From Hypholoma sublateritium FD-334 SS-4 (lineage: Eukaryota > Basidiomycota > Agaricomycetes > Agaricales > Strophariaceae), in NCBI GenBank assembly GCA_000827495.1, contig KN817551.1:110039-174038 (forward strand): 64,000 nt of DNA. The letters are read 5' to 3'. The notes beneath the pieces were generated by a model, which was not told the origin of the DNA, did not search any database, and saw nothing but the letters and a program-made list of their open reading frames with translations. Positions 25,088 to 55,075 of the stretch are shown here, in pieces. Numbering within the stretch: position 1 is the stretch's first letter; every line of letters starts with the position of its first letter. The translations under genes and the position numbers were made by a program.

Positions 25088-26034
25088 ATGCCAATCCCAC
25101 TTCATACCATCGCTCCATTCCTATATGCAGCCAGCACCCTCTCCCGGGCCTCCCACCAAGCACGCTACCTGATTGAACCTACGGAACGACCTCCCTGCGC
25201 AGGCGCATCGTCAGGTCGGCCGCTCGCTGTCGCGCTCGCCGAAAGCAATGACGGGCGTGTCTGAGGCGCCCGCCCGCGAGCCGCTACGCCATACGCAGCC
25301 GCGCGTGCAATTCGCGCCAGCGGAGCCGGAATCGCCCCACAGCGGACACGATGACGGCGGGGACACCGACCCCGTGCGAGACGCCGCCCCGCCGCCAGCG
25401 GCGCACTTCGCCACGCGTCATGGGCCGCAGACTGTGGCCACCACTGGCAGCGCGAGTTCGTAGAGGACGCAGAGTACGCGCACGTACAGCGGTGGGTCGA
25501 TGCACTCCCGCCGCCGCGTGTATCGCTGCGACGAGATCGTGCGGCGGGATACGCCGGACCGCATGCTTTCCGGTGCCGCTGGAACAGCTGCGCCGCCTCG
25601 AGCTCAAGGCAGCGGCGCGCACACCAATCCGGCCCCCCGAAACCCGCGCCCGCGCACGTTGCCGTGCAGCGCGATGGCGGTGGCGAAAACGACGAACACA
25701 GGCAGCGCTGGAGCGAGGAGGGCGCGCGGAGCCGTCGGTACACCCGCCCTCGGCGCGGCGCCGAGCACCTACAGCACCTACGCCCGGCCCGGCCGGTCCT
25801 CGGTTTTGCAAATGGATCATGGTATGTCTGACACCCGCGTCGATTTCTTTACACTTTTTTTACTTGTCATACAGTGGCCCGGATATAATCCACGCTATGG
25901 AACTCAAAATGCGATTCAGTTCTCTATTGATACCACGCGTACCACGGGACGCCATGTATGTAAACGAGGAAGCAGCGGCGCTGGCGCATCGATCGGGTCT
26001 TTCCGGGACTCAGCCGGAATCTCTCTGTTACTAG
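25088..26034 (+). CDS. Array gene family, copy 4 (unknown function)
   Basis: The first exon starts at 25088 (MPIPLHTIAPFLYAASTLSR) with the hallmark ASHQARYLIEPT and would stop at 25264 if unspliced. The last exon is well supported: a 53-bp intron (25822-25874, GTATGTC to CATACAG) precedes 25875-26034, which reads GPDIIHAMELKMRFSSLLIP, then RDAMYVNEEAAALAHRSGLS, and ends ESLCY. The middle is a GC-rich Arg/Ala/Pro-rich stretch with several open frames, so its exons are not resolved. Copies 5 and 8 share this last exon, and copy 6 has a related one. The function is unknown; there is no signal peptide or membrane segment I would trust. Confidence 0.5.
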
Positions 26035-28116: not shown

Positions 28117-29105
28117 ATGCGTATCAACTTTCATACCATCGCTATACTTCTATATGCATCTAGCATCATCGCCCGGGCCTCCCACCAAGCACGCAACCTG
28201 ATTGAACCTACCCGAACGACCTCCCTGCGCAGGCGCATCGTCAGGTCGGCCGCTCGCTGTCACGCTCGCCCAAAGCAGTGACGCGGCTGTCCCCTGGGGC
28301 GCCCGCCCGCGAGCGGCTACGCCATACGCAGCCGCGCGTGCAATTCGCGCCAGCGGAGCCGGAATCGCCCCACAGCGGACACGATGACGGTTGGGACACC
28401 GACCCCGTGCGAGACGCCACCCCGCCGCCAGCGGCGCACTTCGCCACGCGTCATGGACCGGAGACTGTGGCCACGACTTCGTAGAGGACGCAGAGTACGC
28501 GCACGTACAGCGGTGGGTCGATGCACTCCCGCCGCCGTGGGCGCAGACGACCCGCGCCCCGAGCGGTATCGCTGCGAGGAGATCGTGCGGCGGGATACGC
28601 CGGACCGCATGCTCTCCGGTGCCGGTGGAACAGCTGCGCCGCCTCGAGCTCAAGGCAGCGGCGCGCACACCAATACGGCCCCTCGAAACCCGCGCCCACG
28701 CACGTTGCCGTGCAGGGCGATGGCGGTGGCGAAAACGACGAACACAGGCAGCGCTGGAACGAGGAGGGCGCGCGGAGCCGTCGGTACACCTGCCCGTGGC
28801 GCGCCGCCGAGTACCTCCAGCACATGCGCCCAGCCTCACGAAGATGGCGCTATAGCGGAGGGAAGAGACCTTGGTTTTGCAAATGGATCATGGTATGTCT
28901 GACACCCGCGTCGATTTCATTACACTTTTTTTACTTGTCATACAGTGGCCCGGATATAATCCACGCTATGGAACTCAAACTGCGATTCAGTTCTCTATCG
29001 ATACCACGCGTACCACGGGACGCCATGTATGTAAACGAGGAAGCAGCGGCGCTGATGCATCGATCGGGTCTTTCCGGGACTCCGCCGGAATCTCTCTGTT
29101 ACTAG
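28117..29105 (+). CDS. Array gene family, copy 5 (unknown function)
   Basis: The first exon starts at 28117 (MRINFHTIAILLYASSIIAR) with ASHQARNLIEPT. A 1-bp difference from copy 4 shifts the reading after LIEPT, so the unspliced frame ends at 28281. The last exon is 28946-29105 after a 53-bp intron (28893-28945) and reads GPDIIHAMELKLRFSSLSIP, then RDAMYVNEEAAALMHRSGLS, ending ESLCY. The middle again is Arg/Ala-rich; one frame contains EDAEYAHVQRWVDALPPPWA, which resembles SDAYVQQWVDALPLPWGQYD in copy 7. That makes this a plausible genuine internal exon. Confidence 0.5.
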
Positions 29106-42218: not shown

Positions 42219-45200
42219 AGCGGCGCCAAACTGGTAGGTATCAACCATTCCCCCCGCACTCTAACCCCCTCATTCGACCTACCTCTCTCAAATATGCGTA
42301 TCAGATTTCAAACCGTCGCTATACTTCTATATCCCGCCAGCATCCCAGCCCGGGCCTCCCACCAAGCACGCAACCTGATTGAACCTACCAAACGACGCCC
42401 CTGCGCAGGCGCATCGTCAGGTCGGCCGCTCGCTGTCACGCCCGCCCAAAGAAGTGACGCGCGTGTTCCCCGAGGCGCCCGCCGGCGGGCCGCTACGCCA
42501 TAAGCAGCCGCAGCCACGCGTGCAATTCGCGCCATCGCCCTGCACCCCCGCGCGGGCGTGTACTGACTGGTGACACGCGCCCGCCGACTGCACGTTGACG
42601 TACAGCGCGATGGCGGTGGCGAAAACGACGAACACAGGCAGCGCTGGAACGAGGAGGGCGCGCGGAGCCGTCGGTGCACCCGCCCTACGCCCGGCCCGGC
42701 CGGTCCTCGGTTTTGCAAATGGACCACGGTATGTCGGCTCGATACTCATGTATTTTGCAGATACTGATTCTGATACTGAGTTTGAAATCAGCACAGCATT
42801 TGCAAACTCCGCTCAGCCACCTTCAACGTCGTCGCACTCAGATTGGCAGGCTCACCACCCTCGCTGCTGAGGCCATCTCAACGCCGTTCCAATGCTTTCG
42901 CAGCCACAGTAGTCCGCTTTCATCTTCGCTTACTCATATTATCTATGTAAGTTCAGCCTTTTCCGCCACAGTTCGTACTAACAGCTCTGTTATATCAAGT
43001 TATTATCAAAACTGAAACAAGTCGACATATGACCATCGATGCTGTACCATGTCCGCACCCGTCAGCCCGCCCATGAGCGACAGTGCATGTCTGGACACTG
43101 CAGGCAAGTGCACATTCTATATATGAAGCGTGTAATCTAACACGCCTCTGATTTCAAATTTCTCAGCTATGGTTCATTTCAATGCCATCAACAATGCAGG
43201 AGGTCCGGACCAAGCTCGCCTGAAATGGTTCATATGTTCTGGTTTATCCAGTGCAAATGACGTTCCCATGGCCGATGACAATCCGAACTACCAAACCATA
43301 GAGCAGTCGTCGTTGCCGGCTCAAGAGCACCAAATCCGAAAGTCGAAACATGGACATGCCATGACCGCAAGCAGGACCACGACGAAACCCCGCAAGCAAG
43401 CAATTATAGGGCCCAAGCGTCCGCGCGGCCGTCCTCGTAAAGAAAAATCCAATACAGCAGATGTACCAGCTGCCAAAGGACTGAAGCGACCGGTTGGGCG
43501 CCCGCGGAAGCAGCATAAAGAGGATGAACGAGTCATTATTGACTTTGGCGCATTTGTAAGTATCACGGATTTCTTGTACCTCAATGTAAATATGTGCTGA
43601 ATTTTCTTTTTTCTAAGGTTGTTCCTGGCACCCGCTCACAGGAAATCATCAGTAGCATTCCGGCGTCAAGCCTTGCTCAGCACACAGCCCAAACTGGCCC
43701 TCTGAGGATCATTCCGGACGAGGACCCGGATCGACCGGTGGATGATGGCGATGGTGCATACGAAAATGACAATGACAATGACGGCGATGGAAATGGGGTC
43801 GGAAGTGAAGACGATGAAGCGGATGTCAATGAGGATGATGATTCAGGCGATGAGGGTAATATGCCTACACCCCGTCGTCAGCGCCAACGTCTTCCAGCAT
43901 GGCTAATGCGCCCATTCAAGGCCCATGTCGACGCATCACAAAGCAAATTTCGCGATGCAAAGGGTTTACCGCCGCTGTATTCCAAAGATGCTCGTCTCTC
44001 CTTTCATCGCCCCTCCACTCTTTTTCTTCTCAACCACCCTCAGCTCTCGCCGGAGGTTCTTTACAACCCCGAATTCATTTTATGGGATCCTATGGCATTT
44101 TGCAACAAGATCCCGTGTCCAAACTGTGCCAAGGCACTTCAGCGTCACAATGTTATACCTCGCCCTCGCCGAGTCGTCGATCTCGATGGGTCAATTTGGC
44201 TGATTGGGTATCGCTATCGGTGCCGAGACTGTGTTCATCCAGTATCAGGAAAAAACACTGTCACCTTCCGCAGCTGGGATCCTCGAATACTTGCTGTGTT
44301 ACCTATGGCCATTGCCGCTGAATTCCCTGCGAGATTAACTCATCGTAGTGGAATCACAAATAGATTATTTTCATTCATGTGATCATGTTTTACGAGCGGG
44401 ATGGGAGCTAAGCAATTCTCGGATGCACTACGCGTGCAACACCTGCTTCGATATGATCGTCTGCATCAACAATACCTCCTGGTTCTTGCACAGCGTTTGC
44501 AGATGGATGAATGGATTGGCAAGCAATATCCGTCATTTCTGCCCTTCAACGACACGAGTACAGACGGTCCGCGAAACTTTGTTCCAAGTGCTCAATGGCT
44601 CCGGGATCTATATGACATGTTTATCGAGGAGCACCAGCAGGATTTCAATCAGCATATGGCTTTACTCTCTGCGGAGGTATGCGCCATTGATCATAGCCAT
44701 AAGGTATTAATTCTTGCTATGTTGTTCTACTTTTATTTGTATATATCTAACAATCTTTGACTGATATAGATTACAAAGCATATTGCAACTGTAAATGGAG
44801 AACGTGTTTTTACAGCTCTTCTGACGGTCACAAACCAGAATGGGCAAATCCGAGATTTCAACCTTGTTGCTACGAAATCACATTCCCAGTTTGAATGTGC
44901 TCTCGTCAAGATTCGCCAATCATTGCTTATGTACGGTCATCTCCAACCGTACCTCTTCTACACGGACAATATGGGAGATAAAGCCTTCCTCGAGTCTTGC
45001 TTTCCATCATTGCGTGAGGGAGTTGTCCCTATTGAGAAGCATGGTAACCTTGAACCATTTTCAATTCCCGAGGATGTTGAAGTACTGGTCAAAGACGAAG
45101 CCTCGTCAATTAATGCAGCACTCTCGACAATTCTTGATGACATACCAATCGAAGAGTCTGAGCCAGATATCGTTGTGGGTTTTGATGCTGAATGGAATGT

Positions 45201-48044
45201 CACTGTCGGTGATTGGGGAAATCACACACGTGGCGAAGTATCTGTGATACAAATTGCTTATGAGCGACGTGTTTATATTCTTCAGGTGTGTAGTATGTGC
45301 ATGCAAATACTTACTTTATGCTTATGTTATTTTAGATTTCAAGAATGCTCATTGAACGCCATCTTCCAGAGAAGCTGATTATGCTTCTTAGCAATCCTCG
45401 CATTCGGAAAGCTGGTCGCATGGTTGCAAGTGACCTGAAATACCTTGAAAGCAGCTTGGATGACCCACCACCCTTTCTTGGTGCCCTTGATCTTGCCGTT
45501 TTTGCGCGAGATCACCATGTAGTCCCAAATGCGAAAATAGGCCTAGCTGATCTATGCGCCACTGTCCTCCAGAAACAACTTGCTAAGAATGTATCAGAAC
45601 GAGTTAGTAGTGCTTGGGAGGAAAGAACACTCACACCCGCACAAATTCGCTACGCTGCATGTGATGCATATGCTCCTCTTCTCATCTACGAGAAACTTTC
45701 CACAATCCCTGCGCCAAGTGTACTACCAGAGGCACTTGTTCCTGGTACCCCAGTCTTGCTGTATGGAACCGACCAGAAGATTATTGCGCATGGGATCCTG
45801 TCAGAAAAGATCCACCAACAATATGACGCAATCAATTTGACGCCCACACGAATCCTCGTTGATATTGAACATGTTCAAATCCCTGCAGCCAAGCTCTCTA
45901 CGCACAACAATCGTGAACTCAGCAGCTTTGGAAATGTTCCATTCAAAGCCGTGTGCCGTCGAAGCCATCTTCGTATTTACAACCCGGATTCCCAAGCTTT
46001 TTTTCTGCCAGATATACGTGTACATCTGAATCCCATGGCACTTGCTCAGAGTAACGACATGGATATTGACTTGCCTGCAATTACATCCAATGAAGCCTCC
46101 AATCAGGATAACCAAGTTGAAGGAAGTATGGACCTGTCTGACGAATCTGGAGGAGTCGGTGATCTGGTTGGAAATACCAATATCTTGGATTCTGGTGCTG
46201 GTCTTGGAGAAGCTGCTGGTATCCAATCTACTCACACCCGTGACCCGGAGAGTGCGCAACATGGAGAGGAAACTATGGGAAGCATTGAAGATAACAAATG
46301 GGATGACAATATACGAAGCCGCGTCCTCAAGGATATTTTTCACGTATTCAACATGCTACGCATTTTGACAGTGCACGGCTTGCGTAATGAGTTTGCCCGA
46401 GCCCTTCGTGATGGTATTTTTATTCCAGACAAAGAAGATCGTGCCCGCGTTGCAGCATATGGTGCTACACTTCAACCGCCAATGACATTTGAGGAACTGC
46501 GCGCCTCAAAACCAACTTGGCTATGGCGGCACTGCAAACGTGTGATCCCGCCACCTAAGAAACTCTATCCACTTGTTCAAGATATCTTTTTAACATACGG
46601 ACCTCTCAAAGACGCTACCACTGGGCTTCCTCTCTTCGCGCCTCAGCAGTGGCAGTCATCTAAGCAGATCCTCGAGCTTATCCGTCAAGGCTTTGTTTCC
46701 GACCCACCCGGTATTCCTCTTTACACGTGCATCGGAGTTGATTCAAAAGCATGCAATCTCCCAATATATCGCTGTTTTCGTGGAACAAATTTCACGGAAG
46801 GGGGCGTGCACACTCATCTACGTTCGAAACTTCCAACATCTGGTGCATCAATACGTCATGTCAATGCAAGTATGTTGGACTTTGTACTGCGGCATAACCT
46901 CTGCGTGCGTCTCATTTACCTAAGTGTATTGATTTTCACGTAGCTAATATTCCAACATCTCAGGTTGGAACATACAATGAAACAGGTCAAGCATATCAAG
47001 GGCACTATGATATCTGGTTGACAAATAGCCTGCAAGAACTTTTGGTCTTTGTCGAAGATCTATTAATCAATCCTACCCATATCACAGGATGGGTGAATGG
47101 GAACCTCTACACGCCCACCACGGAGACAATTGGCATCATTTCCGTACCTCCAGATGTTCGCGAAGCAAGTGGAATGACCGAATACAACCCTAACCTTGAT
47201 CATAACCGCAAACATCACTACCTCGCGAGCAAACAAGGCACACGCAAGGCAATCTTGCCTGTTCATACACCAGCAGAGCATGCTCTTTTCAAACATCTTA
47301 TGAAGACTAATGATGCCTTTGGAACGCGCTCGAAAGGTCCAATCTGGCCGCAGTGTGTCCAGGTATGGAATACATATGCTGACACTCAAGAAGACGTCTA
47401 CTACAAGGTGAGTATCACGTCAATATTGTTCGTAATTCATATTTCTCATTGTGTTTATTATTATACAGCTCACCGAACAGTTGAAGACTTATCACGCACA
47501 TTGGATGGTGACGTTGAATGTCAAACAGTCCAAGTCACTATCATCCGTAGCTCGTCATTCCGTCAACGAAGCTGCACGGGCAACCATGGCTGCTGTTTTC
47601 ATGTATCAACCCATGGTAGTTGCCTAAGTAGAGTGATATATCCACAGCGGAAACTGCCCAAAGCCTTGGGAAGTTGCCCAGTGATACATCATAGGGCAGT
47701 TGCCCAAGGCCCACCCCCACATGCATGAAATGGGCACTTGCNACTGTTTCCTAATGTGGCAGCAATGATCTTATATAAGCTAGTCTAAAAATAGAAAAAT
47801 GAGAAAAAATTGCTAAATTAGCAGAAAATTCAGAGCTATCCAAATATATCATCGATTCCAAAGTGAGTAAGTGTAACAAACGTGACGGTGGAATCACATC
47901 TATGTGACGGAAAAAAGAAGTTGTCTCTAAGTTCTCAACTTCGACTGCAACTTCGGCTCTTTTGTGTCACCGCTCGCTCAGCAACAGTCTATCGCAGCCC
48001 AAAATCTTTTTGAATTCCAATTTCTACAATACGACTTGTCTAAT

Positions 48045-49659
48045 ATGTCTGCTCCGCAAAATCCGCACCTCGCCGCCTGTCCTGACTTCGCGAGCGCCAC
48101 TTTCGCGGAACGTAGGAACGTCCTCGTGGCCGGTGGGATGGACGAAGCGCAGGCCGTAGCCTTCCTCAAAGCTGCATGGGAGGACATCTCTGCGCAACAA
48201 AAGGCAGCGTGGGATGCCGCCGCCGCCGCCGAGGTCGCCGCATCAGATGCACGCGAGCGTGAGAGGCTCGAGGCCGCTACAGCCGCCGAGGCCGCACAGG
48301 CACAAGAGCAGGAGCTGCTCGAAAAGGAAGATCGCCGAAAGCACAAGGCGAAGTACTTGCTGCATTCGTCCGCGCCGGTACCCAGCCGGACTCCCATCAT
48401 TCCCTCGGCCTCGGTTTTAGCGAGGTTGAGGAAAGGAGAATACGTACCACTCTGGCATTTCACCGCCGCGGGCCTCAAGGCGGTCGACCACACCGTTTCC
48501 TCTTCCCCCACCAACCAGGGCTCATTCATCGCCGACGACGAGGGGAATGTGACATGGGTGGCTGCCACAAGCGCCAAACCCGCTCGCGGGGTGGTTGCTG
48601 ATGCCGACCTCTCGTTCAGGGATTTCACAACAGCGACGCCGCGCATGCTACAGGCCATGGAGTACGTGGATTGGCTACCGGAGCGGGTTAGCATGTTCCA
48701 GACCTTCTGGAGGAACATACAATGCCATCCGATGTACCTTTCGGATGATGAGCGCGATTTCAAGGCCCTGATGCGCTACCAACATGAGCAGCGCGACATG
48801 TGGCACACGGCGGCCGCATCGGCAACCACGCGAAACCGCGTTTACTCACTGGCTGAGATAAACGAGGACGTCCTCCGAGACGCCTGGCGCCGCGTCGACA
48901 TCCAGATGGCAGACGAGTTCAGGCAACAGGTCCGTACTTTCCGCAGTTTCGAGGGTTTTTACAGGGCGCTGACAGGTCTCCGTTTCTCTCTTTTCTTTTT
49001 CCTTTGATGTGTGTCCTCGATGGTTTTCCTCTGTGGTTGCGTTTTGTTCGTGCGTGGGCGCGTGCGCGCTTTTTTCTGGTCGGCTGCGCCGTGCGTTCTG
49101 CGATTGTCTGACGCATCGCGTGCTCCGTGGTCTGGCCCTGCGTTTTGGGCGGCGGTTCGTCTGTTTGGTTGCGTGTTGCGCTGCGTTTGCGCGCGTGCGG
49201 TTTTCTGCCCAGTAGAGGTTGTCTGCAACCAGGGATAGCTCTCGTCCGCGCTCTCGTTCCCCCGAGCGGCGCGGTGCCCGCAAGCGCTCGGCCTCGCCGG
49301 GGCGGCGCGGGGCGCGCAGGCGCTCTGCCTCCCCACCCCACCGTCAGGGGGGCGACAACCGGGATTTTTCTCGTGGCGCAGGCTCCAGTGGCGCTCGAGT
49401 CTGCGCGGTCTGCTTGGGGCGCCACAACCACAACATGGGAAAATGCAGCGCGGCGCGCACCTGGGACGGCGCGCACGCAACTATCTCCGAGAGGAACCGC
49501 AAGGGCGAGCTTGTCATCAAGGCGTCGGGACAAGGTCTCTGCCTCGATTGGCAGCGCTCGCGTGGATGTCGCTCCCGCCACGATGCCCGGCACCGCTGCT
49601 CCGGGTGCGACTCCTCATCCCACGGAGCCAGCGTCTGTCCTCGCGCGGAGGCGCTCTGA
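48045..49659 (+). CDS. gag-like protein of the DIRS-like element
   Basis: The start at 48045 gives MSAPQNPHLAACPDFASATF. The first part (295 codons to 48929) is alanine/glutamate-rich with a probable coiled coil (AAAEVAASDARERERLEAAT). It is followed by the capsid-like segment WLPERVSMFQTFWRNI. A 286-bp segment (48930-49215, donor CAGGTCCGT, acceptor CCCAGTAG) joins in phase to a second part. That part has an Arg/Ser repeat stretch (PRSRSPERRGARKRSASPGR) and nucleocapsid-type zinc clusters CAVCLGRHNHNMGKC and CRSRHDARHRCSGC. If unspliced, the first frame ends at 49007 without the zinc clusters. The second part overlaps the start of the RT frame. Confidence 0.72.
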
Positions 49660-51634
49660 GCCGGTTACTCCATACCCTTGGCGCGCGTGGCATAGCGCAT
49701 TGGCGACGATGGGTTTGTTGCCCCGTCATGCCTCGGTTGTCCAGGGGCTTCGCGAGGGTTTTCGAGTGGACTTTCCGCATGTTTCGCGAACACAAACTCC
49801 TCCGAATCGGCCTTCAGTGGCAGAGTTCCGACAGAATTTCGACGCCATCGTGGCCAACGAGGCCGCTAAAGGCCGGTACGTGGGCCCATTTGCACGCTCC
49901 GCCCTTGAAGAGGCAATTGGACCATTCCAGACATCTCCTTTCTCAATTATACCGAAACCTGGTCGCCCCGACAAATTCCGCATTATCCAAAATTTCTCCT
50001 TTCCTCTCGAGCCTTCTTCAGCTTCGCCTAATCCCTCCGTCAATTCATCAACATTGGCGAGCAATTTTCCCTGCACATGGGGAACTTTTCAGGTCACCTG
50101 CGCCGTGCTTGCAGCCCTACCACCGGGCTCGCAGGCTGCAGTCCGAGATGTTTCAGAAGCTTATCGCACAATCCCTCTCCATCATTCTCAATGGCCAGCA
50201 GGCGTCGTACGGACAGGCGACGACACGTTTTGGGTGGATACATGCGCAGCGTTCGGCGCGCGCCCATCTGGGGGTGTTTACGGTCAACTCGGTGATGCAG
50301 CAGCTGATTTATTTCGCGCACATGGCATGGGCCCGGTTCTCAAATGGGTGGATGATTATATTTTCCTCCGCATCCCTCGTGAGCATCTACCCTCGTATAA
50401 CTGTGATCGGAAATGCCTCCAGAGCATGGTTAGGGAACAGGGTGATTCAGCAGAGGGTGGTCGACGGTGGTTTGGGATGGGAATCGGCAGGAATGGCAGG
50501 GGTTTTGAGGCTGTGGAGGATTTCACCTACCCACTGCGCGATCTTGCTGCCACCTGTCCTCGGGAGGATGACGAGTTTGCCTACAACTTTGAGGATATCA
50601 ATGCACTTTCCGCTCTATTGGGGATCCCCTGGGAGGCTTCGAAGGATGTACCGTTCAGTTCCGCTGTCACATATATCGGACTACAGTGGGATTTGGAAAA
50701 GCGGACTGTGGGTCTCCCAACAGCAAAGTGTCAGAAGTATCTGGGTGGGATTGCGGCGTGGAAAGGTTGCGCCACCCATGCACTTGAAGACGTACAATCC
50801 CTGTATGGGCGCCTTCTTCATGCCTCTCTTGTGGTTCCCGCGGGGCGTGCGCGCTTGGTTGGTCTTGAGGCGATGCTCGGTATTTATGCCCTTAACCCCC
50901 TTGTTCGTCGACACGCTGTCTCTTCAGTCGCAGACGACCTCTCCTGGTGGGTCGAGCGCCTCCAATGCCCCATCCTCGAACGTCCAATTCCAGACCCTCG
51001 AGAAATTGCAGACTTTGGAGCCTTCTCCGACGCAAGCTCCGAAGTTGGCGTCGCAGTCGTTGTTGGTGGCCGATGGCGGGCCTGGCGACTCCTGCCTGGT
51101 TGGCGAACTCTCGGTGGAATTTGGGACATATCATGGGCAGAGGCAATCGGTTTTGAACTCCTTGTCGACGCCGTCCTCCGTGTTGCCCGCTCGGGTGAGC
51201 ACATTGAGCTATTTGGGGACAACATTGGAGTTGTCGAGGGGTGGTGGAATGGCCGCAGCCGCAATGGACAGGTCAACGAAGTCTTCAAGTGCATACACGA
51301 CAAACTGGAGCAGTGTGGGGCAGTGGGTACCATCCATACATCGTACGTCCGCAGCGAAGACAACCCAGCTGATGGACCCTCCCGTGGGATTTTTGGGCCA
51401 CTCTCCCTCCTCCTTCCCCCTCTCGCAATCCCCTCCCGTGCCATTGGCTTCCTCATCGATGTGCTTGAGCCTCTCACACCCGCTGAGCTCCGAGCACGGC
51501 AGGATAATGCAGCCCAGTTTGTGCCTGCCCAGAAGCCGCCACGTAGCAGACAACCTGTTGGATCCTCAGAGGCCCATTTCGGCATCCACGCCGAATGGGC
51601 AGGTGAATTCATCAGCCCAGAAGACACGTTTTAA
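49583..51634 (+). CDS. Reverse transcriptase-RNase H of the DIRS-like element
   Basis: The frame runs from at least 49583 (MPGTAAPGATPHPTEPASVL) to 51634, about 683 residues; the true start could be a frameshift from gag. RT motifs are SPFSIIPKPGRPDKFRIIQN, the catalytic Asp in AAVRDVSEAYRTIPLHHSQW (about 187), GARPSGGVYGQLGDA, and the YxDD-equivalent KWVDDYIFL (about 254). RNase H follows, with FSDASSEVGVAV (about 482), SWAEAIGFELL, LFGDNIGVVEGW and EDNPADGPSRG (about 593), giving the D-E-D-D set. The order RT then RNase H and then recombinase matches DIRS/Ngaro elements. No stop interrupts it, so the element looks recently active. Confidence 0.88.
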   Translation: MPGTAAPGATPHPTEPASVLARRRSEPVTPYPWRAWHSALATMGLLPRHASVVQGLREGFRVDFPHVSRTQTPPNRPSVAEFRQNFDAIVANEAAKGRYVGPFARSALEEAIGPFQTSPFSIIPKPGRPDKFRIIQNFSFPLEPSSASPNPSVNSSTLASNFPCTWGTFQVTCAVLAALPPGSQAAVRDVSEAYRTIPLHHSQWPAGVVRTGDDTFWVDTCAAFGARPSGGVYGQLGDAAADLFRAHGMGPVLKWVDDYIFLRIPREHLPSYNCDRKCLQSMVREQGDSAEGGRRWFGMGIGRNGRGFEAVEDFTYPLRDLAATCPREDDEFAYNFEDINALSALLGIPWEASKDVPFSSAVTYIGLQWDLEKRTVGLPTAKCQKYLGGIAAWKGCATHALEDVQSLYGRLLHASLVVPAGRARLVGLEAMLGIYALNPLVRRHAVSSVADDLSWWVERLQCPILERPIPDPREIADFGAFSDASSEVGVAVVVGGRWRAWRLLPGWRTLGGIWDISWAEAIGFELLVDAVLRVARSGEHIELFGDNIGVVEGWWNGRSRNGQVNEVFKCIHDKLEQCGAVGTIHTSYVRSEDNPADGPSRGIFGPLSLLLPPLAIPSRAIGFLIDVLEPLTPAELRARQDNAAQFVPAQKPPRSRQPVGSSEAHFGIHAEWAGEFISPEDTF

Positions 51635-51668
51635 CGCCCCAATTCCGGCACCGTCTCTCGACCGTTCA

Positions 51669-52823
51669 ATGGGGCGGCGCTACCGGGATGGTCTCGTGCC
51701 CACTCCGTCTCTTCTTCGCCCACGTTGTGCGGCGACGGATCGCTTACATCTTTGGTTTCCTGCACAGCGGGCAGCGGGCACTACGTTTGGGTACACGCCG
51801 TCTTCCCCAGAAGACACGGCGCGCATTCTGGACCTCATCAGCAGTGCGTGGGCACCAGGGACTCGCTCCGGGTACGGCTCAGGTTTGCTTGTGTTCCACG
51901 TCTTTTGCGACCAAAAAGTGCCACCTGTTCCGGAGCATCAGAGAGGGCCGGCGAGCGATCTCCTGATCCTGGAGTTCATCGCGTGGTGCGCGGGTTCGCA
52001 TCGCGGCCGCACTTTGGCGAACTATGCATATGGTGTCAAGGCATGGCATACTGTCCACGGTATGGGCTGGGTTCTGGATGAGACTCGCCTCAAGGCCGCA
52101 CTGGTAGCTGCGGAGCGCGTTGCCCCAGCAGCTTTGAAGCGCCCAAAACGCCCTCCATTACTGCTTTCCACTATGGAGGTGATCGAACGACGTCTCAACC
52201 TCGCATGCCCTCTCGACGCAGCTGTTTTTGCCTGTTTAACAGCAACGTTCTGGTCAGCATCGCGTCTGGGAGAATTCACTGTGCCTTCCCTCAACACAGC
52301 CTTTGACCCTGAGGTACACGTGAAGCCGTCAGACGTGACATCTCATTCATCCAGCGGTGGCCTTCCGACGACCCGGGTTCATCTCCCCTGGACCAAGGTC
52401 GCAAAGGAGCGCGGGGAAGATGTGCATTGGGCTCCACAGGCCCGGTGCGATCCTGACGCTGCTTTCAAGAATCATTTGGCAGTCAACTCCCCTCCACACA
52501 ATGGTCCTCTTTTTTCTTACCTACACACAGACGGGCGGCGTAGGCCTTTGACACGCTACAATTTTCTCAAGCGTATCAACACGGTCATGCTAGGTGTTGA
52601 TGGATGGTCGCGGATGCAGGGTCATAGCATCCGTGTGGGCAGCGTCTTGGAATATCTGCTTCGGGGGCTGTCTTTTGAGGTGGTGAAGGTTATTGGACGG
52701 TGGTCCAGTGACGCTTTTCTACTTTACCTCCGCGAACACGGGGACATTTTGGCTCCCTACATACAAAGCTGTCCCGTTCTGGAGGAGGCTTGGCACCGCG
52801 CGGTACCTCCAGTGCGTCGGTAA
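51669..52823 (+). CDS. Tyrosine recombinase of the DIRS-like element
   Basis: 384 residues from MGRRYRDGLVPTPSLLRPRC to PPVRR, in a different frame from the RT; the open frame extends upstream across the RT region, so an overlap is possible. An N-terminal SAM-like stretch (STRSGYGSG-like, WAPGTRSGYGSGLLVFHVFC) precedes the catalytic domain. The catalytic Arg is in FWSASRLGEFTVPSLN (about 197), a Lys in LPWTKVAKERGED, HxxR in GHSIRVGSVLEYLLRG (about 318), then GRWSSDAFLLYLREH with the W and nucleophilic Tyr. All catalytic residues are present. It integrates circular cDNA without target duplication. Confidence 0.88.
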   Translation: MGRRYRDGLVPTPSLLRPRCAATDRLHLWFPAQRAAGTTFGYTPSSPEDTARILDLISSAWAPGTRSGYGSGLLVFHVFCDQKVPPVPEHQRGPASDLLILEFIAWCAGSHRGRTLANYAYGVKAWHTVHGMGWVLDETRLKAALVAAERVAPAALKRPKRPPLLLSTMEVIERRLNLACPLDAAVFACLTATFWSASRLGEFTVPSLNTAFDPEVHVKPSDVTSHSSSGGLPTTRVHLPWTKVAKERGEDVHWAPQARCDPDAAFKNHLAVNSPPHNGPLFSYLHTDGRRRPLTRYNFLKRINTVMLGVDGWSRMQGHSIRVGSVLEYLLRGLSFEVVKVIGRWSSDAFLLYLREHGDILAPYIQSCPVLEEAWHRAVPPVRR

Positions 52824-53459
52824 CTCTGTGAGTAGCCTGCTCCTTGTTTTGGGGGTTTTTCACGCGGACTCGGAAAATGCGTCGCGGGCTCCTAATGCTT
52901 TGGGTGATTGTTTCTCATCGCGTTCACCTTTTAGATTGCCCAGTAGTCCTCGGGGCCCAGCCCGAGCATGCATCTCAAGTCCAAAGACCGTGTCGGTGAC
53001 GGAGACGCGTGTGCGCTCGTCCGTTTTTGTTCCGAACGTACACGGCCCGGTCTTTCCCCCAAAAACCTACGTACAGTGATGTACTTCATCTGTGCTACGG
53101 TAAACATTCGCTACTCTGGATGTACGGTTGGAGGCAGGACTTATCCTGTCATCCAACATGTCGGAGACTTCTGCTGAGCTACATAGACCAAAATCATCAC
53201 TGTAGGTGGCTTCCTTATTTGGTAAAATGCAAAATGAATTTTTGAACGGCTGCCTATTTGCAAAATTGACCCCCTCAGAAAATTATCAAATAATTTTTAA
53301 AATTCCCTAAAATTCATAAACTATCTGTATATGGAAAGAAATCCAGTGGTCTGTGCACAAAACAATGAGATAAAGGCCTTTTATCAGCTAGATATCAACT
53401 AGATTAGATGACTTTGCAATCTCATGTGCTGCTGCCCAAAAGATGGACTTGGGCCAAAT
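52824..53459. other. 3' non-coding part of the DIRS-like element
   Basis: No coding region. The distal part (53220-53440) is AT-rich. It probably includes the internal complementary region, but the following gap prevents checking. Confidence 0.5.
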
Positions 53460-53750
53460 NNNNNNNNNNNNNNNNNNNNNNNNNNNNNNNNNNNNNNNNN
53501 NNNNNNNNNNNNNNNNNNNNNNNNNNNNNNNNNNNNNNNNNNNNNNNNNNNNNNNNNNNNNNNNNNNNNNNNNNNNNNNNNNNNNNNNNNNNNNNNNNNN
53601 NNNNNNNNNNNNNNNNNNNNNNNNNNNNNNNNNNNNNNNNNNNNNNNNNNNNNNNNNNNNNNNNNNNNNNNNNNNNNNNNNNNNNNNNNNNNNNNNNNNN
53701 NNNNNNNNNNNNNNNNNNNNNNNNNNNNNNNNNNNNNNNNNNNNNNNNNN
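53460..53750. other. Assembly gap (291 N)
   Basis: A run of N inside the right part of the DIRS-like element, where repeats similar to the ends would collapse in assembly. Confidence 0.99.
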
Positions 53751-54443
53751 AGTTGCCCAGTGGGCAGTTTCCGCTGTGGATATATCTCTCTACTTAGGTA
53801 ACTACCCAGCTTCATACATGCAGACAGTGGCTACTTGTGGCACGGGATCCATCACGTTCAGTCAAAGCACCACCTGTTCCTCAAAAATCGCCAAAGCGAT
53901 ACACTGTCAACGCGGGTTTCAACCCGATTCCCATCACTGCACCACCTCCCACCAATAATACTGCACTCGTCAGAACCTCAGGCGCATATACACATGGATC
54001 TATTCCAGAAGCCGCCAACGGACCCGCTACATTTCCTATATCAAATCCACGTGAAGCAGCTGACGAAATTGCCCGACAGCGAGTCGCACACCAACTACAA
54101 ACCTCGCGTGTGAAGAACAAGGTTCGGAAACAACGCACATGTCGAAAGTGTGCGCAACCGGGTTGTCCAGGCAGTCAGAGGGTGTCTAACTGCAAAAATA
54201 GATGTCGAGACTGTGGGAAGACTGATTGCAGAGGTCGAAATACGAAGAGATTGGACAAGACATGTTCTGAAGGTTGGTAACTTATACTACATAATTTATA
54301 TATTCATACTAGACTGTACTATACTACTATACTACTAAGCACATAGAATATCTGTGTTATATCTTAAATGTCACTCTGTTAATATGCACATCTGTGGTGT
54401 TAAGTCCAACACAAGCCCTTTGCGAGCGCGAGAAATGTGATGG

Positions 54444-54734
54444 ATGTCGGGCAAGCGCCGAGGCGGACTGGCCCAAGAACAATTGACGCGCAAACAATTG
54501 GATCAGTTCAAGTTCGCCTCTCTAAGCGAGTATCGTGAGCCAGTGCACCGAATTTTCCATAAAGAGAATAATGTCGGCCAGGAACGTGGTATTTATGGTG
54601 TGAGCAATAAGCGAGTATCCAGAATGCTGAACCGACTCACTGGCATGTCAATCTATTTACAGAATCAGCCCTGTTATTATTGGATTCGGAGTCAACGTAT
54701 GATAGTCTTCTGGCTCGAGAGACCAAGAAATTGA
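54444..54734 (+). CDS. Small open frame near the right end of the 12 kb transposon
   Basis: 96 codons beginning MSGKRRGGLAQEQLTRKQLD and containing NNVGQERGIYGVSNKRVSRM. It follows the cysteine-rich end of the large gene by about 160 bp on the same strand. It could be a last exon of that gene or a small accessory protein; I recognise no domain. A T/C-rich tract and the right inverted terminus follow. Confidence 0.3.
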   Translation: MSGKRRGGLAQEQLTRKQLDQFKFASLSEYREPVHRIFHKENNVGQERGIYGVSNKRVSRMLNRLTGMSIYLQNQPCYYWIRSQRMIVFWLERPRN

Positions 54735-55075
54735 CTTGAATTTTCTCTCTTTTCCCTCCTCTCTTTCCTCCTCTTTCCTTTTTCAGCTTCCTTCTTTTTT
54801 GATTTATTTTTTAGTTTTTTTGCAAAACACACCAGTATCGGGCCGGTATGTCTGACACCCGCGTCGATTTCATTACACCCGTTTTACTTGTCATACAGTG
54901 GCCCGGATATAATCCACGCTATGGAACTCAAAATGCGATTCAATTCTCTATTGATACCACGCGTACCACGGGACGCCATGTATGTAAACGAGGAAGCAGC
55001 GGCGCTGGTGCATCGATCAGGTCCTTCCGGGACTCCGCCGGAATCTCTCTGTTACTAGTATTTATCTGCATGTAC

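Follow-up and report, generated by a model that had tools for sequence, protein, structure and literature searches.

The 64,000-nucleotide stretch of Hypholoma sublateritium DNA analyzed here (the window) harbors at positions 42736-54844 a DNA transposon with terminal inverted repeats (TIRs), bounded by an 8-bp target-site duplication, GGTATGTC, at 42728..42735 on its left and 54845..54852 on its right (both unstranded). The 24-bp left TIR (42736..42759, forward strand) matches the 24-bp right TIR (54821..54844, reverse strand) at 20 of 24 positions, and the duplicated octamer occurs once in each of two unoccupied paralogous target sites on the forward strand of the window, at 25680..25948 (86% identity, gaps counted) and 28726..29019 (77% identity, gaps counted). 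A preliminary description of the sequence had looked to inverted ends and 8-bp duplications as marks of a transposon, and the window element carries both. It had also spoken of a 12-kb element with a gene starting at 43049; the gene start agrees with our annotation, but the true element is larger and is not one unit, since 47580..53839 (unstranded) is a nested foreign insertion that had been counted in. This 6.3-kb insertion, with imperfect inverted ends of ~80 bp and the 6-bp duplication GCACGG, is no part of the outer transposon.

The transposase gene lies on the forward strand. Exon 1 (43049..43103) provides the start codon, to which a start in the C180 copy corresponds, and a GC splice donor. 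Exon 2 (43167..43555) encodes two AT-hooks (KRPRGRPRK and KRPVGRPRK) that score below the Pfam cut-off, and exon 3 (43618..44703) an acidic stretch, DUF6729 with a CCCC zinc module (CPNC..CRDC) and, at its end, the first aspartate of the DDE core in AIDHSHK (Asp1, D506; codon 44689-44691). The second aspartate, in YTDNMGDK (Asp2, D576; 44965-44967), lies in exon 4 (44770..45285) together with the first part of the exonuclease, which includes FDAEW (D649, 45184-45186; E651, 45190-45192). The remaining exonuclease, with ASDLKYL (D715), YAACDAY (Y788 and D792) and a PF01612 match at 45372-45701, is encoded by exon 5 (45336..46904), followed by a beta-rich segment, a linker, the DxxH signature (46332-46343), a helical segment and the glutamate of RGTNFTEGGVH (E1170; 46797-46799); the segments of this exon were assigned by analogy with a structure-modelled homologue. 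Exon 6 (46964..47407) precedes exon 7 (47469..47579), which is interrupted by the nested insertion, and the final part of the gene (53840..54280) encodes a cysteine-rich tail (CRKC..C..C..CRDC). Every motif named in the preliminary description was found in the order given there (AT-hooks, cysteine module, aspartate pair, DEDDy, EGGVH, cysteine-rich tail), and the profile searches it had suggested, run on pieces of the window, returned DUF6729 (3.1e-10) and PF01612 (8.5e-9). The gene is not intact: it contains an in-frame TGA (44380..44382) and the nested insertion. The window copy is a dead transposon copy, broken through a nonsense change and the insertion.

Across an alignment of 76 homologues of the window family, which we term family A, all five DDE/DxxH residues are present in 72 sequences, all five DEDDy residues in 66, and the ten together in 64; because the ten residues are kept across the alignment, the arrangement is more than chance. 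Both the DDE core and the exonuclease are under purifying selection, with dN/dS of 0.05-0.10 for the exonuclease part of exon 5; the dN/dS values cover the gene as far as exon 5. The N-terminal CxxC..CxxC module precedes Asp1, and its columns hold cysteine in 73, 73, 75 and 50 of the 76 family-A sequences, the fourth column with 14 gaps; all four cysteines are found in 23 of 23 aligned sequences of a second family, family B, described below. One regular expression for a C-terminal C..C..CxG..C..C..C module matches 30/76 family-A sequences, the others being partial, truncated or different; in the window protein no histidine stands at the place published for the C-terminal CCHC motif of Dada. 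Pfam scanning of 27 family members revealed DUF6729 in 26, and a weak MULE match (E 0.021) in one, on which nothing was built. The hAT transposases are characterized by an all-helical insertion after C/DxxH, a C-terminal dimerization domain and a BED finger, and KDZ/Zisupton elements by KDZ transposase homology and CxC modules; neither hAT or BED domains nor KDZ or CxC families were among the Pfam families matched by the 27 members. Zisupton shares with family A an 8-bp duplication.

In the structure model of a homologue, an RNase H-like fold is predicted around the two aspartates and the EGGVH glutamate, as had been proposed. An exonuclease with its full set of catalytic residues is inserted in this DDE core. 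The insert is of the WRN-like DEDDy type, its fold being predicted, and lies between Asp2 and DxxH. The earlier placement at the hAT-type insertion site has to be abandoned, as the exonuclease lies instead between strand 4, bearing Asp2, and strand 5 with DxxH. The insertion domains of hAT, P and MULE transposases, where present, follow C/DxxH. The modelled homologue has a separate, mainly helical segment of ~150 residues between DxxH and the glutamate, which presumably occupies the usual hAT/IS256 insertion place. With hAT, P and MULE, family A shares the C/DxxH signature between Asp2 and the glutamate, as well as long duplications; we know of no comparable exonuclease insert in these superfamilies. 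When the 1000 PDB chains ranked highest by Foldseek were compared with VIA-align, the only transposase among the best 50 rows was that of ISCth4 (IS256 family; PDB 6xg8, 6xgx and 6xgw), which is alignable with the split DDE core of family A but is prokaryotic and without the exonuclease insertion. The lack of hAT, P and MULE structures among these 50 rows proves nothing, and a PDB profile search yielded no IS256-type match by sequence.

Four copies in the genome carry the family-A ends (window, C73, C180 and C167), two of them, the window and C73 copies, with an 8-bp duplication. That of C180 is ambiguous (the 9-bp AAGCACGGC, displaced 4 bp from the right end) and was left out of the count, and C167, with its left end eroded, was assigned none. 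The element thus has sister copies, and one derivative that has lost internal sequence is flanked by a duplication of its own. Searching the genome with the TIR pattern at up to two mismatches returned 20 sites, against 6 for a reversed control: eight sites had at most one mismatch (seven in the four copies, one on C2), and the 12 with two mismatches hardly exceed the reversed control. For the ends on C2 and C37, a search for the exact 7-base end core in ~4.7 and 6.6 kb of downstream DNA gave no convincing partner. A combined TIR/duplication scan recovered the window and C73 copies, missed the C180 control, whose duplication does not adjoin the end, and returned nothing for C36. In viral contigs scanned with the family-A alignment, 13 stretches fit a pattern and none coded for a relative.

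The same genome contains a second exonuclease family, family B, with TIRs of ~440 bp. Its end was placed at TATGG, the preceding base being variable; the scan of C18 gave misleading pairs within the long repeat, and the true ends were defined separately. Duplications of 5-6 bp accompany 10 of 11 end pairs, and one was looked for and not found in C134. With regard to insertion sites, no Rfam family was detected across the window, both unoccupied site versions included; the joined sites of C73 and C180 contain no tRNA and their loci have no Rfam match. For family B, tRNAs are absent from 11 joined sites and Rfam gave no match in 20 unjoined 120-base ends, in which a split non-tRNA RNA gene could escape detection.

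The preliminary description knew of no superfamily with this arrangement, but Dada matches it exactly, and novelty must be rejected because Kojima & Jurka 2013 (PMC3706591) describe an exonuclease within the Dada transposase of Laccaria bicolor Dada-1_LB and Dada-2_LB and Ectocarpus Dada-1_ES. A passage in PMC8290104 attributes a Dada profile to Muszewska et al. 2017. Exonuclease-bearing Dada resembles family A in its DDE + DxxH core, N-terminal CCCC module and introns, in having a 3'-5' exonuclease of the DEDDy class inserted after Asp2 and ahead of DxxH, and in a nearly identical aspartate spacing. We therefore consider the window element, with a probability of roughly 0.85, a cut-and-paste transposon with an exonuclease-bearing Dada-type transposase, the likeness to Dada resting on the published description; no Laccaria or fish protein was recognizable by name among the matches listed.

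Transposase subunits may bind the element ends through their AT-hooks and zinc modules, and the DDE site would cut the element free and link it to the target across a stagger of 8 bp. The tethered 3'-5' exonuclease could then trim the 3' ends exposed by cleavage before or during joining; flaps would be the likeliest substrate, with ends misplaced ahead of joining and the broken ends of the donor as alternatives. An appreciable possibility, at somewhat less than even odds, is that its substrate is not the element's own ends, and that it degrades flanking donor ends so as to bias their repair, or removes intermediates of the target or the host: the WRN-like fold is compatible with several 3' substrates on DNA, and DDE joining requires intact 3'-OH ends, but a location within the catalytic core suggests that the exonuclease works on DNA which the transposase has already bound. 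A comparable system is KolobokD, a DDE transposon with a DEDD-type exonuclease for which 3'-end degradation has been proposed (Kojima & Bao 2022, PMC9587614); it differs from family A in its DEDDh class, superfamily and TTAA duplications.

Alternatively, the family could form a separate superfamily near hAT, MULE and IS256, the exonuclease position being inherited from a common ancestor or convergent. Published Dada elements with definable termini all lie inside multicopy small RNA genes, have duplications of 6-7 bp (8 bp being left open for Dada-U1) and, in Dada-U6 and Dada-U1, reportedly lack TIRs (PMC3706591); families A and B have 24-bp and ~440-bp TIRs, duplications of 8 and 5-6 bp and no RNA gene found at their sites. 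The weak MULE match (E 0.021, 1/27 members) would point the same way. Against this, domain order, insertion point, DEDDy class, CCCC module and aspartate spacing are all as in Dada, family B duplications approach the Dada range and published Dada includes the mushroom Laccaria, making a separate superfamily unlikely. For the Laccaria elements the main text of PMC3706591 gives neither termini nor targets. If these elements are Dada, RNA-gene targeting and TIR absence would not be general for Dada-type elements. A more speculative extension, on which we place limited confidence, is that exonuclease-bearing Dada of mushrooms constitutes a separate branch with TIRs and 5-8-bp duplications that lost or never had small RNA gene targeting, with a tethered proofreading-type nuclease that edits the 3' ends held by the transpososome after cleavage and ahead of joining, in effect an 'editing' transposase.

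It is improbable that the exonuclease serves as an inactive insert with a structural or DNA-binding role: at least one of its five residues is missing in 10/76 family-A sequences, three by gap, but the set is complete in the other 66 and the dN/dS values are low. Some names given in databases, for instance 'Werner syndrome ATP-dependent helicase-like protein', imply a host WRN-like repair gene, a reading we reject as extremely unlikely because TIRs and duplications are present and empty sites as well as deleted derivatives exist, WRN itself being a host repair protein that shares the fold and catalytic residues of the family-A insert without a surrounding transposase.

For exonuclease-bearing families we now give the ends and the lengths of the duplications, together with empty sites and non-autonomous partners, all missing from the literature that we found, so that the function of a 3'-5' exonuclease inside a DDE transposase becomes a question that can be asked. 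Some mushroom genes called 'Werner-like' or '3'-5' exonuclease' are members of the window transposase family, and Pfam DUF6729 corresponds to the N-terminal zinc part of exonuclease-bearing transposases.

The window lies within contig C34 (343,512 bases) of the 46-Mb genome and contains a real transposon of a known, little-studied protein type. Comparison of three copies, the window element and its sisters on contigs C167 and C180, placed the homology at approximately 42740-54845, interrupted at the nested insertion (47580-53839). The element ends in 24-bp inverted repeats (20/24 matching), with GGTATGTC on either flank. A search with the joined flanks recovered two unoccupied paralogous sites inside the window (25680-25948 and 28726-29019), each containing one GGTATGTC, and partial copies on C16 and C10. 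The flanking pair and its single counterpart in both empty sites directly show that a 12.1-kb insertion occurred and duplicated 8 bp of the target, bearing out the inverted ends and duplication put forward in the preliminary description. The target sequence is locally triplicated (25680-25948, 28726-29019 and 42616-42735/54845-54974), and the transposon split one of its copies.

The nested insertion has imperfect inverted ends of ~80 bp, a 6-bp duplication (GCACGG) and a run of N at ~53460-53750. Its long ORFs (49112-51634 and 49239-52823) gave no Pfam match; from their motifs, we take them to resemble reverse transcriptase, RNase H and tyrosine recombinase. Such content is odd in an element having a duplication.

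Genome searches with both end regions located ends of the window family (family A) at no fewer than four places: the window, C167, C180 and C73. The C73 copy, internally deleted to 1.55 kb, has the same terminal inverted repeats (TIRs) as the window copy and a perfect 8-bp duplication (GAAGCCGC), and is a non-autonomous derivative of the family. The gene frames of the C180 copy are open along its length; because its duplication is ambiguous and the left end of the C167 copy is eroded, the 8-bp length derives from two of the four copies. At the C180 right end (locus L008), four additional bases separate the end from the probable duplication, possibly through imprecise end processing.

Genes on C18 and C36 define a second family (family B), with the same order as family A and roughly 25-45% identity across aligned pieces. 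The C18 gene lies inside a 7.8-kb element (C18:154243-162078) with TIRs of ~440 bp, 73% identical. The 29-base family-B end occurs 30 times in the genome at ≤3 mismatches (reversed control, 0), and 22 of these occurrences form eleven convergent pairs: the gene element and ten others on C18, C79, C92, C131, C134, C138 and C183. The latter are mostly shorter copies of 2.3-3.3 kb, with ends 13.7 kb apart in one and 8.3 kb in another. Duplications, read from the ends of the ten pairs and from the gene copy, measure 6 bp in 7/11 and 5 bp in 3/11 (gene copy included), and are absent in 1/11. Two short copies that were fetched have end sequences 83-86% identical to those of the gene element. Taken together, the TIRs, paired ends, duplications and short copies establish that the family-B exonuclease gene also belongs to a mobile family.

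The window gene comprises 1390 codons across seven exons upstream of the nested insertion, with one in-frame TGA, and continues beyond that insertion. Its product starts with two AT-hooks, an acidic stretch and DUF6729 with CPNC..CRDC, followed by D506 (Asp1, in AIDHSHK), D576 (Asp2, in YTDN), the exonuclease (D649/E651/D715/Y788/D792), D1015xxH1018, E1170 (in RGTNFTEGGVH) and a Cys-rich tail. Pfam searches of the window pieces matched DUF6729 (3.1e-10) and PF01612 (8.5e-9), with AT-hook scores under cut-off and no transposase family matched. DUF6729 (PF20499) directly precedes Asp1 in these transposases, with 26 of 27 members matching, and could be renamed a transposase N-terminal zinc domain; no mention of 'DUF6729' was found in the literature searched.

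In the predicted fold of the DDE core, the exonuclease is inserted past strand 4 and ahead of DxxH. The hAT insertion comes after C/DxxH, whereas here the exonuclease precedes DxxH, and the hAT-type location initially proposed for it is thus not sustained. Since a segment after DxxH is present too, the protein would carry two insertions. Model residues 599-676 of P0138, a homologue, form a beta-rich segment with the exonuclease on one side and DxxH on the other. The DDE core would operate by cut-and-paste, with a stagger of 8 bp in family A and 5-6 bp in family B, and the exonuclease would trim 3' ends, whether those of the transposon, those of the flanks or those at the donor break. Trimming would be its simplest role, given an exonuclease tethered to the transposase beside the cut ends, and is the role proposed by Kojima & Jurka (2013; PMC3706591, accessible text).

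That work describes the exonuclease-in-DDE arrangement itself, in Dada transposons, and already offers the end-processing role suggested in the preliminary description, contrary to the earlier impression that no described superfamily has this arrangement. The transposase is a Dada-type protein with an exonuclease; the element's DNA-level traits differ from published Dada ones, and Dada membership is therefore assigned only with reserve. In the accessible text, Dada elements with definable termini are inserted in small RNA genes with duplications of 6-7 bp, and TIRs were not found for Dada-U6 and Dada-U1 (PMC3706591); Kojima (2022; PMC8869645) again gives 6-7 bp and RNA-gene targeting, the terms 'exonuclease', 'Laccaria' and 'terminal inverted repeat' being absent from its main text as available. 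Among other sources, likewise in their available text, KolobokD carries a DEDDh exonuclease (Kojima & Bao 2022; PMC9587614), a Dada profile search in Marasmius oreades gave no multiple well-supported matches (PMC8290104), Dada is listed among repeats of Ganoderma and Ectocarpus (PMC8955403, PMC12477816), and the word 'exonuclease' is absent from PMC12730594. Literature searches found no paper on the ends or targets of exonuclease-bearing Dada. The TIRs and duplication lengths of the two families, together with their apparently non-RNA targets, are novel. tRNA searches found none in the joined sites of the window, C73 and C180, nor in the eleven joined family-B sites. Rfam gave no match on the whole window (both empty target versions included), on the C73 and C180 loci, or on 20 unjoined 120-base family-B ends, where an insertion-split snRNA or 5S gene could escape, but the eleven family-B sites are dissimilar from one another. 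The window target is a locally repeated sequence, and the C73 right flank falls within a dispersed repeat.

Protein searches at E 1e-3, each scoring only the 8000 candidates with most words in common, yielded 192, 132 and 89 matches; the listings cover the best 120 from each of the first two and every match of the third. The named matches that we recognised are, we presume, all Agaricomycetes. From the best 120 of the 132 matches, 76 proteins were picked by eye for length and coverage (no fixed cut) and aligned: D, D, D, H and E are retained in 72/76, DEDDy in 66/76 and all ten catalytic residues in 64/76. Among 23 aligned family-B proteins, taken from all 89 matches of one search, the ten residues are complete in 17 and the CCCC module is present in every one. 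A spacing of 70 separates Asp1 from Asp2 in 71 of the 76, versus 68 in Dada-U6_DR (D567, D635; PMC3706591, accessible text). Selection is evident from Nei-Gojobori dN/dS among three genomic copies: 0.02-0.05 in exon 4 (carrying Asp2 and FDAEW), 0.03-0.07 in the DxxH-Glu part, 0.05-0.10 in the exonuclease part of exon 5, 0.07-0.10 in exon 3 and 0.14-0.17 in the linker. Members P0125, P0133, P0237 and P0263 of this transposase family appear in databases under labels like Werner helicase-like, DNA replication focal centers or Exonuclease 3'-5' domain-containing protein 2.
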